NCBI GenBank assembly: GCA_905479625.1
Contig: CAJQNF010000019.1
Location: 1-49,944 of the forward strand
Origin: an uncultured Flavobacteriaceae bacterium
GTDB lineage: Bacteria; Bacteroidota; Bacteroidia; Flavobacteriales; Flavobacteriaceae
DNA length: 49,944 nucleotides
Reading direction: 5' to 3'
This document shows, piece after piece, positions 20,151-25,092 of the stretch. Within the stretch, counting starts at the first letter, position 1. Each line of letters opens with the position of its first letter. Under the pieces are notes generated by a model, which made no database searches, was not told where the DNA came from, and worked only from the letters and a program-made list of their open reading frames with translations. A program made the translations under genes and the position numbers.

Positions 20151-21542
20151 CTAAAGCTTGGCGATTACTTTTATTTCCTCAATAATACGCTGGGCAAGGG
20201 CATCTGCCGCTTCCTGCGTATGGCTTTCAGTATAAATACGGATAATTGGCTCTGTATTTGATTTTCTCAAATGCACCCATTCAGAATCAAAATCAATCTT
20301 TACTCCATCTATGGTACTGATATCTTCATTTTTATAAGTAGATGCCATACTGCTTAAAATTCCATCAACATCAATCTGAGGGGTTAATTCAATTTTATTT
20401 TTACTCATAAAATAAGAGGGATATGAATCTCTAAGGGTTTTACACGAAACCTTCATCTGAGCCAAATGGCTCAAAAATAAGGCAACTCCAACCAAAGAAT
20501 CTCTGCCATAGTGTGATGAAGGGTAAATGATACCGCCATTTCCTTCACCTCCAATGATCACTTTATTTTTTTTCATGAGTTGCACTACATTTACCTCACC
20601 AACCGCACTGGCCTCATAGCTTCCTCCGTGTTTTTGTGTCACATCTCTTAATGCTCTTGAAGAGGACAGGTTTGAAACTGTATCCCCGGGTGTTTTTGAA
20701 AGTACATAGTCAGCGCAAGCCACCAAGGTATATTCTTCACCAAACATACTTCCATCTTCATTAACTATAGCAAGGCGATCTACATCTGGATCAACCACGA
20801 TCCCTAGATCTGCTCCTTCCGAAACAACCAATTTAGATATTTCCTGTAAATGCTTAGGTAATGGTTCCGGATTATGTGGAAATTCCCCGTTGGGTTCGCA
20901 ATATAATTTAACACATTCAACACCTAAAGCATCAAGTAGTTGTGGAATAACAATTCCTCCTGTTGAATTTACTGCGTCTACAACAACCTTAAAACCTGCA
21001 TTACGAATCGCATCAACATCAACAAGGGGTAAATTAAGCACCTCAGTGATATGCTTTTCAAAATAATCTTTGTTTTTTGAATAAGTTCCCAAATCATCAA
21101 CTTGGGCATATTCAAAATCTTGCGAAGCAGCTAATTCTAAGATAATATTACCTTCAGCTGCATTTAAAAACTCTCCTGCTTCATTCAGTAATTTTAAGGC
21201 ATTCCACTGCTTTGGGTTATGCGAAGCTGTCACTATAATCCCTCCATCTGCCTTTTCAAGTGGCACAGCTACTTCAACGGTAGGTGTAGTTGACAAACCC
21301 AAGTCTACCACGTCAATACCAAGACCCACAAGGGTATTAGAAACTAAACTACTGATCATTTTACCTGAAATTCTTGCATCGCGTCCAATGACCACTTTTA
21401 ATTTTTTACCAGACGGGTTTCTTTTTAAAAGCCAAACCCCATAGGCAGAGGCAAATTTTACAGCATCCAAAGGGGTTAGATTGTCATCTGTTTGACCCCC
21501 AATTGTTCCGCGTATTCCGGATATAGATTTAATTAAAGTCAT
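20151..21542 (-). CDS. glmM: Phosphoglucosamine mutase / phosphomannomutase family
   Basis: Alpha-D-phosphohexomutase of 463 residues. The phosphoserine is S107 in VTASHNPKQWN, the metal loop is DPDVDRL (about 250), the sugar-binding loop is GGEGNGG, and the phosphate-binding loop is RKSNTEPIIRIY. Members in this phylum are usually annotated GlmM, which makes glucosamine-1-phosphate for peptidoglycan and LPS; mannose or glucose specificity cannot be excluded. It is the first gene of the glmM / class V aminotransferase / DUF1697 run, with a textbook promoter 21-50 nt upstream of the ATG. Confidence 0.88.
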   Translation of the reverse strand: MTLIKSISGIRGTIGGQTDDNLTPLDAVKFASAYGVWLLKRNPSGKKLKVVIGRDARISGKMISSLVSNTLVGLGIDVVDLGLSTTPTVEVAVPLEKADGGIIVTASHNPKQWNALKLLNEAGEFLNAAEGNIILELAASQDFEYAQVDDLGTYSKNKDYFEKHITEVLNLPLVDVDAIRNAGFKVVVDAVNSTGGIVIPQLLDALGVECVKLYCEPNGEFPHNPEPLPKHLQEISKLVVSEGADLGIVVDPDVDRLAIVNEDGSMFGEEYTLVACADYVLSKTPGDTVSNLSSSRALRDVTQKHGGSYEASAVGEVNVVQLMKKNKVIIGGEGNGGIIYPSSHYGRDSLVGVALFLSHLAQMKVSCKTLRDSYPSYFMSKNKIELTPQIDVDGILSSMASTYKNEDISTIDGVKIDFDSEWVHLRKSNTEPIIRIYTESHTQEAADALAQRIIEEIKVIAKL

Positions 21543-21562
21543 TTACTGTTTTTTAAGTGTTA

Positions 21563-21592
21563 CAAATATACCTTTTACCCAAATTTTGGCAA
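21563..21592 (-). promoter_or_regulatory. glmM promoter, TTG-N19-TATATTTG
   Basis: On the minus strand TTG (21592-21590) is followed by a 19-nt spacer and TATATTTG (21570-21563). This is a full match to the Bacteroidota housekeeping consensus. Predicted start near 21556, a leader of about 14 nt. It abuts the rpsA terminator. Confidence 0.75.
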
Positions 21593-21636
21593 TAAAAAAA
21601 CCGTTCAAATTTTGATAAACAAAATAAGAACGGTTT
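21592..21636 (-). terminator. rpsA terminator
   Basis: AAACCGTTC (21598-21606) pairs with GAACGGTTT (21628-21636). In the leftward direction the stem runs into a T-run (A-run at 21594-21600 on the plus strand). It starts 23 nt after the rpsA stop codon. Confidence 0.8.
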
Positions 21637-21658
21637 ATTATATGGAAATAAAATCTAA

Positions 21659-23920
21659 TTATTTTTTATCAGACTCCATTTTCTTTTTAAGGGCAGCAAG
21701 ACCTGAAATATCACCTAAAGTTGTTTTTTCAGCCTGTTCTGACTGCTTCATAACTGTTTTGATATTTCTTTCTTCCTGTGCTCTAAATATAGAAGAGTGA
21801 GATACAACTAATCTTCTGTATTCTTTATTGAATTCCAATACTTTGAAATCAACTGAATCACCTTTTACCAATTTAGATCTGTCTTCTTTTTCCATGTGAC
21901 GTCCAGGAACAAAAGCCTCAACACCATCTTCAAAAGTTACAATGGCACCTTTATCATTTACTTCTTTCACTGTACCTGGGTGCACTGAATCTATAGTATA
22001 GGTTCCTTCATGTTTATCCCAAGGATTTTCAGTAGTTTGTTTATGACCTAAATTCAATTTACGTCCTTCTACATCTAATTCAAGAACTTCAACATCAAGC
22101 TGATCACCAACTTTTACAAAGTCGGATGGGTGCTTGATTTTCTTAGTCCATGAAAGGTCAGAGATATATACCAAACCGTCAATTCCTTCTTCCAACTCAA
22201 CAAATACACCAAAATTAGTATAATTTCTAACTGTACCTGTATGTTTTGAACCTACTGGGTATTTAGTAGTGATATCAGTCCATGGATCTGGTTGCAATTG
22301 CTTGATACCAAGAGACATTTTTCTTTCCTCTCTGTCAAGTGTAAGAATTACTGCTTCAACAATATCTCCAACTTTTACAAAATCCTGTGCAGATCTCAAG
22401 TGAGTTGACCATGACATTTCAGACACGTGAATCAATCCCTCTACTCCTTCACTTACTTCGATAAATGCACCGTAATCTGCAATAATAGCAACCTTACCTT
22501 TAACTTTATCACCAACTTTTAGATTTTCGTCTAAAGCTTCCCATGGATGCTTGCTCAATTGTTTCAATCCTAATTGAATTCTTGTTTTCTCATCATCAAA
22601 GTCAAGAATTACAACATTCAATTTCTGATCTAATTCAACAATCTCACTTGGGTGATTGATTCTGCTCCAAGAAAGGTCCGTAATGTGAACTAATCCGTCT
22701 ACACCACCAAGATCAACAAATACTCCATAAGAAGTAATGTTTTTCACAACACCTTCTAATACTTGACCTTTTTCTAATTGACCAATAATTTCTTTTTTCT
22801 GTTCTGCAAGATCAGCTTCGATAAGTGCCTTGTGAGAAACAACAATATTTTTGAATTCATGGTTGATCTTAACCACTTTGAATTCCATGTTCTTGTCTAC
22901 GAATTGATCGTAATCTCTAATAGGCTTCACATCGATTTGAGATCCTGGCAAGAAAGCTTCAATTCCGAAAACATCAACGATCATACCACCTTTGGTTCTG
23001 CATTTCACATATCCTGTTACGATCTCTTGTGTTTCATGAGCTTTGTTTACCCTCTCCCAAGCTCTGATTACTCTCGCTTTTCTGTGAGAAAGCACCAACT
23101 GACCTGTATTGTCTTCAAGTTTATCAACTTTAACTTCAACAGTATCTCCAACTTGTAGGTTTGGATTATACCTGAATTCATTTAAAGAGATAACTCCTTC
23201 AGACTTAGAGTTTATATCGATTATCGCTTCACGATCTGTAAGACGAACAACTGTTCCGTCAATTACTTGACGCTCCTCTACAAATCCTACTGTATTTTCT
23301 AAGGCACTATCAAATTCATCTAATTGAGATTGATCTACCGCTTCAATACCTTCTTCATATTTTTGCCAATCAAATTCACTTAAGAATTGAGCTGGGTCAA
23401 CTTTTTCTTCAGCTTTTTCAGCAACTGGCGCAGCGGTTTCCTCCACTTGAGCCTCAGCTTTATCTGCTACTTTTTCTTCGATCACTTTTTCTTTTTTTGG
23501 TTCTGCAATTTTTTCACTCACCTTTTTTACTTCCTTCTTTTCTTTAACAGGTGCTTCTTCAGCTACTTCTTCTTTGGCAACTTCATAAACTGCTTCAGAT
23601 CCTGTTTCTTTAACCAATAAGTAATAAAACAAAGCGCGGTATTTCTTTTTGTTACTAGAGCCAAGTGTGTCAATTACTTTTGCAATAGCCGCATCGAAAA
23701 CTTCTTCGTTATGCTCAAGGCCTAATTTTTTGATAAGGAAATTCTTTTTGACAGTTTCTAATTCTTCTTTGTTAGAAGATGAAACCAATTCCGAGTCTTC
23801 TTTGTAGATTGATGGACCTAATCCTTTGGCTACTAATTTAAAAAGATCTGCATTTAATTCTATACCTAGCTTTTCAGCTGCTTCTGTGTATAGCTCAATT
23901 TTTTCTTGTAGTTTAGACAT
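21659..23920 (-). CDS. rpsA: 30S ribosomal protein S1 with N-terminal DUF2853 domain
   Basis: S1 binds mRNA leaders on the 30S subunit and helps start translation. Six S1 OB-fold repeats are visible at about 218-282, 300-365, 386-453, 471-540, 558-626 and 645-710. Residues 1-113 are not part of normal S1: they match the small stand-alone DUF2853 family (LFKLVAKGLGPSIY, TVKKNFLIKKLGL, SSNKKKYRALFYYLLVK). A lysine/glutamate/alanine-rich linker (about 114-175) joins it to the usual flavobacterial S1 start (FLSEFDWQKYEEGIE). Length is 753 against about 600 usual. There is no internal ATG until residue 313, so the fusion is read as one protein. The DUF2853 function is unknown. Confidence 0.95.
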   Translation of the reverse strand: MSKLQEKIELYTEAAEKLGIELNADLFKLVAKGLGPSIYKEDSELVSSSNKEELETVKKNFLIKKLGLEHNEEVFDAAIAKVIDTLGSSNKKKYRALFYYLLVKETGSEAVYEVAKEEVAEEAPVKEKKEVKKVSEKIAEPKKEKVIEEKVADKAEAQVEETAAPVAEKAEEKVDPAQFLSEFDWQKYEEGIEAVDQSQLDEFDSALENTVGFVEERQVIDGTVVRLTDREAIIDINSKSEGVISLNEFRYNPNLQVGDTVEVKVDKLEDNTGQLVLSHRKARVIRAWERVNKAHETQEIVTGYVKCRTKGGMIVDVFGIEAFLPGSQIDVKPIRDYDQFVDKNMEFKVVKINHEFKNIVVSHKALIEADLAEQKKEIIGQLEKGQVLEGVVKNITSYGVFVDLGGVDGLVHITDLSWSRINHPSEIVELDQKLNVVILDFDDEKTRIQLGLKQLSKHPWEALDENLKVGDKVKGKVAIIADYGAFIEVSEGVEGLIHVSEMSWSTHLRSAQDFVKVGDIVEAVILTLDREERKMSLGIKQLQPDPWTDITTKYPVGSKHTGTVRNYTNFGVFVELEEGIDGLVYISDLSWTKKIKHPSDFVKVGDQLDVEVLELDVEGRKLNLGHKQTTENPWDKHEGTYTIDSVHPGTVKEVNDKGAIVTFEDGVEAFVPGRHMEKEDRSKLVKGDSVDFKVLEFNKEYRRLVVSHSSIFRAQEERNIKTVMKQSEQAEKTTLGDISGLAALKKKMESDKK

Positions 23921-24004
23921 CTTGTCTTGTACTTTGTATCTTATTGTTTTACAGATTTCTAAACGACTAAAACACTAAGAGAAATGAATATTTATTTTTC
24001 TACA

Positions 24005-24034
24005 CCTTTTGTAAATCTGAATTCGTTCAAAAGG
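24005..24034 (-). promoter_or_regulatory. Inverted repeat at the 5' end of the rpsA leader
   Basis: CCTTTTG (24005-24011) and CAAAAGG (24028-24034) form a 7-bp stem with a 16-nt loop containing GAATTC. The predicted transcription start (about 24032) falls at the stem's outer edge, so the mRNA would begin with this hairpin. It may stabilise the mRNA or take part in S1 autoregulation. This is speculative. Confidence 0.35.
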
Positions 24035-24038
24035 CGTG

Positions 24039-24069
24039 CAAATATACAAACAAATTATTGTTTTCACAA
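24039..24069 (-). promoter_or_regulatory. rpsA promoter, TTG-N20-TATATTTG
   Basis: On the minus strand TTG (24069-24067), a 20-nt spacer, then TATATTTG (24046-24039). Predicted start near 24032, leaving a leader of about 110 nt before the ATG at 23920, long for this window. Confidence 0.65.
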
Positions 24070-24138
24070 TAGCATCTAAATTATTCTTTAAAGCCCCTTT
24101 CACTGACCTTTTAAAAAACTAATAGACAGCGTATTAAC

Positions 24139-25092
24139 CTAAAGTAATGAATTGATAATCTGGGTTTCTGAGATGCCTTCAGCCTCTGCTTTGTAGTTCT
24201 TGACTATCCGGTGATGCAATATGCCATGAGCAACAGCCTGCACATCGGCAATGTCCGGAGAATATTTACCATGAATAGCGGCGTAGCCTTTCGCTGCTAA
24301 AACCAGGTTTTGAGAAGCTCGTGGTCCAGCTCCCCAATCGATATAATTCTTTACGATCTCAGGAGCATTTTCCTGATTCGGTCTCGTTCTTGTGGCCAAT
24401 TTAACAGCGTATTCCACCACGTTATCTGCGATAGGAATCCTTCTAACCAAATGTTGATATTCTATAATGTCTTTGTGTGTAAATACCGGATTCACAACAA
24501 TATCTTCATCATTTGTGGTATTCTTAGCCACAAAAACTTCTTCATCAAATGTTGGGTAGTCAAGGTATATGGAAAACATAAACCTGTCTAACTGTGCCTC
24601 AGGCAAAGGGTAAGTTCCTTCCTGCTCAATCGGGTTCTGAGTAGCCAATACAAAAAAAGGCAGATCAAGGTTAAAACTATGCCCGGCAACCGTTACTGAT
24701 TTCTCCTGCATTGCCTCAAGCAGCGCTGCTTGTGTTTTGGGTGGTGTTCTATTAATTTCATCAGCCAAAATGATATTGGCAAAAATGGGTCCCTTTATAA
24801 ACTTGAATTTCCTGTTTTCATCCAGGATCTCACTTCCCAAAATATCGGAAGGCATCAAATCCGGTGTAAACTGTATTCTTTTAAAGTCAAGTCCCAAAGC
24901 TTTGGCAACGGTATTGACCAAAAGTGTTTTTGCAAGCCCGGGAACACCTATCAGTAAAGAGTGTCCTCCACATAGAACTGAAAGCAATACATGGTCAACA
25001 GCATCATGTTGCCCTACAATTACCTTGCCTATTTCCTTTTTTAAATGAGCATAGTTTTCTACAAGGCTATTGATTTTAGCAACATCAGACAT
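24139..25092 (-). CDS. MoxR family AAA+ ATPase
   Basis: Chaperone-like AAA+ ATPase of 317 residues. The Walker A variant GVPGLAKT at 49-56 (AKT instead of GKT/S) is typical of MoxR proteins. Walker B is ILADEINR near 108-115, followed by TPPKTQAALLEAMQE, and the sensor region is VLATQNPIEQEGTYPLPEAQLDRF. The C-terminal lid follows. MoxR proteins usually work with a VWA-domain protein and a DUF58 protein; none is present downstream, where rpsA follows after 218 bp. Here it is the last gene of a run of three periplasmic folding factors, 5 bp after the SurA-like gene. Confidence 0.93.
   Translation of the reverse strand: MSDVAKINSLVENYAHLKKEIGKVIVGQHDAVDHVLLSVLCGGHSLLIGVPGLAKTLLVNTVAKALGLDFKRIQFTPDLMPSDILGSEILDENRKFKFIKGPIFANIILADEINRTPPKTQAALLEAMQEKSVTVAGHSFNLDLPFFVLATQNPIEQEGTYPLPEAQLDRFMFSIYLDYPTFDEEVFVAKNTTNDEDIVVNPVFTHKDIIEYQHLVRRIPIADNVVEYAVKLATRTRPNQENAPEIVKNYIDWGAGPRASQNLVLAAKGYAAIHGKYSPDIADVQAVAHGILHHRIVKNYKAEAEGISETQIINSLL

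Follow-up and report, generated by a model that had tools for sequence, protein, structure and literature searches.

The window analysed was a stretch of 49,944 nucleotides from a contig of an uncultured Flavobacteriaceae bacterium. The minus-strand open reading frame at 21659-23920 encoded a single protein of 753 residues with an ATG start, in which a DUF2853 domain, a charged linker and a complete ribosomal protein bS1 followed one another (Table 1). A phosphoglucomutase/phosphomannomutase-family gene, such as the one downstream, adjoined rpsA in many relatives, in genomes with the fused and with the plain gene.

Table 1. Features of the rpsA locus in the window.
Feature	Coordinates	Strand	Basis or remarks
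Downstream neighbour, phosphoglucomutase/phosphomannomutase family (GlmM-like)	20151..21542	-	
Ribosomal protein bS1, residues 173-753, six S1 repeats, stop codon included	21659..23404	-	Pfam, NCBIfam
Charged Glu/Lys/Ala linker, residues 113-172, no ATG	23405..23584	-	composition; codon scan; pLDDT
DUF2853 domain, residues 1-112	23585..23920	-	PF11015 match at residues 14-108; phmmer; AlphaFold2; Foldseek
Conserved rpsA leader	23921..24046	-	TTTGCACnCCTTTT at 24029-24042, ATACAA at 23934-23939; common to fused and plain rpsA
Putative -7 element TATATTTG of rpsA, Bacteroidota-type	24039..24046	-	126 nt upstream of ATG
Upstream neighbour, MoxR-type AAA ATPase	24139..25092	-	

The PF11015 match in the full protein had an E value of 3.5e-31 and a score of 108 bits, and residues 1-113 searched alone, as the preliminary description had suggested, also gave a significant match (E 4.3e-33); the PF11015 scores were 108-114 bits overall, at a Pfam gathering cut-off of 25 bits. 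The family-invariant residues E53, K93, R95 and Y99 were all present (65-row DUF2853 alignment with the window protein as one row). Six PF00575 stretches, corresponding to six S1 repeats, were found behind the linker, and the NCBIfam model NF004953 '30S ribosomal protein S1' matched residues 173-751 with 914.5 bits (equivalog cut-off 720). The preliminary description of a genuine fusion of DUF2853 to a normal six-repeat S1 through a charged linker was thus confirmed by matches lying in one frame and by the recurrence of the arrangement in 46 genomes. Its statement that no alternative ATG precedes residue 313 was correct as well, the next methionine after residue 1 being residue 313. In the genome of the window (assembly of 2.67 Mb in 151 contigs, 84% complete), this gene was the sole DUF2853 match and the sole rpsA found.

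The AlphaFold2 model of the domain was compact and helical (pLDDT 94.8). The closest solved structure was 2PYQ (Jannaschia Jann_4075), which was matched by phmmer at 9.2e-24 and aligned by Foldseek with an E value of 5.9e-07, a TM score of 0.87-0.88 and an rmsd of 1.8 over 112 columns; in the Foldseek search against the PDB, 2PYQ was the only entry below E 0.001. Foldseek rows pointing to an S100/EF-hand-like fold were weak, with E about 2, and were set aside. The net charge of the domain was -2 in the window, and averaged -0.9 over 28 fused rows and +1.3 over 65 stand-alone rows. As the fused domain was not basic, its charge lent no support to an RNA-binding surface, although a local patch may still exist. 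The linker varied from 40 to 90 residues across the fused genes, and in the window it consisted mostly of Glu, Lys, Ala and Val. When residues 1-310 were modelled (16 rows), pLDDT was about 31 at residues 121-170; because this model was poor throughout (mean 53.9), the linker was considered probably disordered mainly on the grounds of its composition and variability.

Across at least six genera of the Flavobacteriaceae, 46 genomes had DUF2853 and S1 together in a single open frame. In a family sample of 149 genomes (148 genera), DUF2853 was detected in 101 and was fused to S1 in seven (six genera). Scans with PF11015 and S1 models gave a shared frame in 16 of 22 genomes of the window's genus, 13 of 17 in genus g119 and 13 of 14 in genus g113, to which G058, G116, G146 and the genome of L067 were added; in g119 and in g113, 12 genomes apiece were scored as sharing a frame on match tables and not on translations. 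Contig ends truncated several of the 46 genes, and in one (G152) a frame break lay inside S1. The remaining genomes of the window's genus had the halves on separate contig ends (G158, G164, G165) or gave no S1 match (three genomes); the rest of g119 comprised three genomes with plain rpsA (G784-G786) and one with a split gene (G781), and the one left in g113 had no S1 match (G793). Samples of the order (296 genomes) and of the phylum (345 genomes), both including family members, showed no S1 fusion outside the Flavobacteriaceae. All of the fused genomes searched (42/42) had one S1 gene, two-piece genes being counted once, and the single-contig genomes G025 and G113 also carried the fusion.

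Two irregular cases were recorded. The broken fused rpsA of G152 (L144) came from a single-contig assembly of 72% completeness and perhaps reflects a sequencing error. Plain rpsA genes of g119 (L053, L279-L281) occurred in three genomes within a mostly fused genus, and the N-terminal tail of L053 (MAEKAKKEV...EVEATE) resembled, by eye, the S1 tails of the Winogradskyella type; in these genomes the fused 5' part may have been replaced by recombination.

The history of the fusion was followed in trees of both parts. The S1 tree was built from 94 rows, leaving out duplicates, near-copies, fragments below 500 residues and the frame-broken L144. All 18 fused rows fell into one 30-row clade (SH-aLRT 100), which also held the plain S1 proteins of Polaribacter, Tenacibaculum, Aureivirga, a Lutibacter and L053. 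The tree required four changes between the fused and the plain state, and gains could not be distinguished in it from losses. Since plain S1 proteins lie inside the same clade, and three of 17 g119 genomes have plain rpsA, the DUF2853 domain is dispensable. In the first DUF2853 tree (93 rows; duplicates and fragments left out, three fused genes from the genus represented by two rows each, and the contig-edge pieces L043, L045 and L208 counted as fused), the 28 fused rows formed one clade (92/77) beside the stand-alone proteins from G113 and G058. For a revised tree, 25 of the 93 rows were removed as distant or duplicate, and 14 rows of stand-alone proteins and 10 of fused ones were put in. The fused rows and the stand-alone proteins of a type beginning with MSKFDEK then occupied one side of a branch (98/83), which makes the MSKFDEK-type stand-alone gene of the clade itself the most likely donor. 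The long-branched stand-alone L272 was placed among the fused rows in the revised tree, and a single fused clade was not rejected (p-AU 0.37). The fusion apparently arose in a single old event. The MSKFDEK-type genes adjoined dnaK in 8 of 14 loci examined; dnaK also adjoined the DUF2853 gene of L245 and was one gene away from that of L239.

Within the window's genus, the median dN/dS came to 0.118 in the domain (29 usable pairs of 55), 0.334 in the linker (41 of 55) and 0.037 in S1 (35 of 55), with dS near saturation (medians 1.2-1.4). Mean identities over 17 fused genes were 71% for the domain, 37% for the linker and 85% for S1. The DUF2853 domain is under purifying selection, and the fusion is kept by selection. 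It was also considered whether the gene was a chimera of assembly or binning, or a recent neutral read-through fusion. The window's genome is indeed fragmented, but the identical fusion occurs in dozens of genomes of several genera, including both single-contig ones, and the selection on the domain speaks against neutrality, so that the probability of such an origin is practically negligible. We conclude that the fusion is real, old, selected and located in the sole S1 gene.

Further, the region upstream of the gene was compared among fused and plain rpsA genes. A -7-like element was called using TAnnTTTG, which we take to be the -7 consensus of Bacteroidota, and was found 125-133 nt before the ATG in all 16 rpsA genes examined for it, of which 10 were fused and 6 plain. 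The order in the leaders was the same: the -7-like element, then TTTGCACnCCTTTT, and ATACAA near -20. TTTGCA and ATACAA were kept in all 20 aligned leaders (9/9 fused, 11/11 plain). Among 35 fused loci, representing 34 distinct genes (L052 = L303), the first motif was located by script at -120 to -127 in 33 and ATACAA at -16 to -22 in 34; L304, which the script scored as a miss, had both motifs when its sequence was read. In at least 34 of the 35 fused loci, the rpsA leader thus immediately preceded the start of DUF2853, and neither of its motifs stood at these positions before any of 17 stand-alone DUF2853 genes (18 were taken, the start of one not being located). Residue 1 of the fused protein occupies the place of the former S1 start. 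As the leader precedes the DUF2853 start, DUF2853 was inserted between the leader and S1, and translation should begin at residue 1. No Rfam family matched within 21300-24600, and no consensus structure was found by RNAalifold in the 20-row alignment; hence, the leader is described as conserved and not as structured. It is possibly an S1 autoregulatory leader of the Flavobacteriaceae.

The position of the leader and the lack of ATG from the linker in 17 of 17 fused genes make full-length translation, as assumed in the preliminary description, the best reading, and the fused protein is probably made full-length. Two products could be formed if initiation at a GTG in the linker, or proteolysis of the linker, freed DUF2853 and left the ribosomes with ordinary S1. 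A flexible linker would be a target for proteases, and the window gene has in-frame GTG codons at residues 134, 146 and 159, as well as TTG at 97 and 102. A linker GTG was present in 14 of 17 fused genes, the one at window residue 146 being common to seven, all in the window's genus, and in L135 and L052 an ATG stood at the very end of the DUF2853 domain. However, L131, L134 and L052 had no linker GTG, L131 contained none of ATG, GTG, TTG, CTG and ATT from residue 96 to the S1 start, and no -7-like element was found within the first 620 nt of the window gene. Together with the missing linker ATG and the leader lying before DUF2853, these observations make the formation of two products very unlikely.

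It had been expected that genomes with the fusion might lack the stand-alone gene. This was contradicted, as 30 of 46 fused genomes held a further DUF2853 (4/16 in the window's genus, 12/13 in g119, 10/13 in g113 and 4/4 of the others), some of these copies being distant paralogues or contig-edge pieces and many of the assemblies being incomplete. No other DUF2853 was found in the window's genome, 84% complete, or in the complete G025. The fusion does not substitute for a free DUF2853 gene. A divergent DUF2853 type with the GPSIY motif replaced (L046, L149, L183, L184 and L146) was also noticed in several fused-clade genomes, and four of these five loci (L046, L149, L183 and L184) adjoined menD.

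In most family members with a stand-alone DUF2853, the gene lay between menD and cvfB in a menaquinone operon (e.g., L172), and the gene of CvfB, an S1-domain protein, followed directly downstream of 79 of 102 stand-alone copies. Adjacency of menD and cvfB without DUF2853 was seen in 13 of 14 genomes looked at, out of 36 having CvfB and no DUF2853. The surroundings of 20 DUF2853 copies not beside cvfB were read: five adjoined menD (G028, G023, G106, G010, G146), and the other 15 lay away from menD, some of them beside dnaK, except for G094, which was unresolved. A specific link to CvfB as evidence of an RNA-related role was dropped, since cvfB follows menD without DUF2853 and DUF2853 stays with menD without cvfB. 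DUF2853 had been described as a family of small stand-alone proteins, which did not hold: it was found C-terminal to a PF04185 phosphoesterase in another family of the order (L137:7630-9552, minus strand), and N-terminal to an OmpA domain on a plasmid of Sphingomonas paeninsulae (L253:3953-5035, plus strand), with an apparent membrane segment between the two domains. No ribosomal genes were among the annotated neighbours within 4 kb of four alphaproteobacterial plasmid copies. DUF2853 is most economically viewed as a small module for interactions that serves in several different settings.

In the open-access literature searched, no title or abstract among the matches listed concerned an S1-DUF2853 fusion, and DUF2853 was mentioned in one paper, in which Bartonella quintana BQ08670, a DUF2853 protein, is listed among temperature-responsive genes (PMC3595295). 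This response and the dnaK neighbour make a stress-related role of DUF2853 a lead and no more.

S1 delivers mRNA to the 30S subunit, on which it docks via its own N-terminal repeats; therefore, the fused DUF2853 would be held near the 30S platform. The preliminary description had placed the domain on every 30S subunit. As the product of the sole S1 gene, it should be carried by those ribosomes that carry S1, but 'every' was too strong: bS1 was reported to be sub-stoichiometric on purified ribosomes of Flavobacterium johnsoniae, being loosely bound (PMC9976891). In the same species, added bS1 doubled the amplitude of the initiation reaction on one mRNA without a Shine-Dalgarno (SD) sequence and had little effect on rpsU mRNA initiation (PMC9976891). 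A module added to S1 could thus alter mRNA choice. The suggestion that the fusion would reveal a ribosome- or RNA-related function of DUF2853 was weakened by the other fusions, the menD and dnaK neighbours, the non-basic domain and the fold match to 2PYQ alone.

We propose that a copy of the clade's MSKFDEK-type gene entered rpsA between leader and coding region, most likely in a single event, giving a product with a complete DUF2853 at its start, a tether of 40-90 residues and an ordinary S1. The rpsA promoter and leader would drive a full-length protein that is the only S1 of the cell, and on its tether DUF2853 would be free to move about the platform of the 30S subunit, close to the path of the mRNA. 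The domain would most likely be a small all-helical interaction module that recruits a partner or modulates the activity of S1 or the 30S subunit, perhaps under stress. This explanation as a whole is held with moderate confidence, as reasonably probable; within it, an action of DUF2853 on the ribosome with an effect on translation is plausible.

The domain might instead merely profit from the very high, growth-coupled expression given by rpsA, performing an ordinary non-ribosomal job while the tether keeps it clear of S1. Such expression hitch-hiking agrees with DUF2853 being stand-alone in most relatives that have it and fused elsewhere to unrelated partners, with the long and fast-evolving tether, with the normal look of the S1 part and with the plain rpsA of close relatives. 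On the other hand, the further DUF2853 copies in most fused genomes mean that the fused one is not simply the sole supply, and some 180 added residues per S1 would be costly if expression were the only gain. We regard hitch-hiking as rather unlikely. A broader proposal, that DUF2853 is generally a cytosolic factor on S1-type OB-fold proteins, acting in trans, in most flavobacteria, on S1 and on the neighbouring CvfB, but in cis on the fused S1 here, and tuning the mRNA choice of an SD-independent ribosome, perhaps under stress, appears quite unlikely. The tethered interaction module on a full-length, sole S1 is the reading preferred here.

That dozens of species carry the whole domain in a conserved fusion to their only S1 gene offers a concrete handle on DUF2853, and the fusion would exemplify a ribosome equipped with an accessory domain. 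To our knowledge, S1 fusions are few. The protein shares with the plain flavobacterial bS1 (NF004953; Polaribacter, Tenacibaculum, Maribacter and others) the six S1 repeats, the leader motifs and often the downstream neighbour, but the plain proteins start with a variable tail of about 10-80 residues in place of DUF2853 and the linker. With the stand-alone DUF2853 proteins (PF11015; 2PYQ) it has the whole domain and the fold in common, whereas those proteins end where the linker of the fusion begins. The HMBPP reductase (IspH)-S1 proteins (NCBIfam NF000907) likewise carry an unrelated domain N-terminal to S1; there, however, the partner is an enzyme, and here it is the helical DUF2853 domain.
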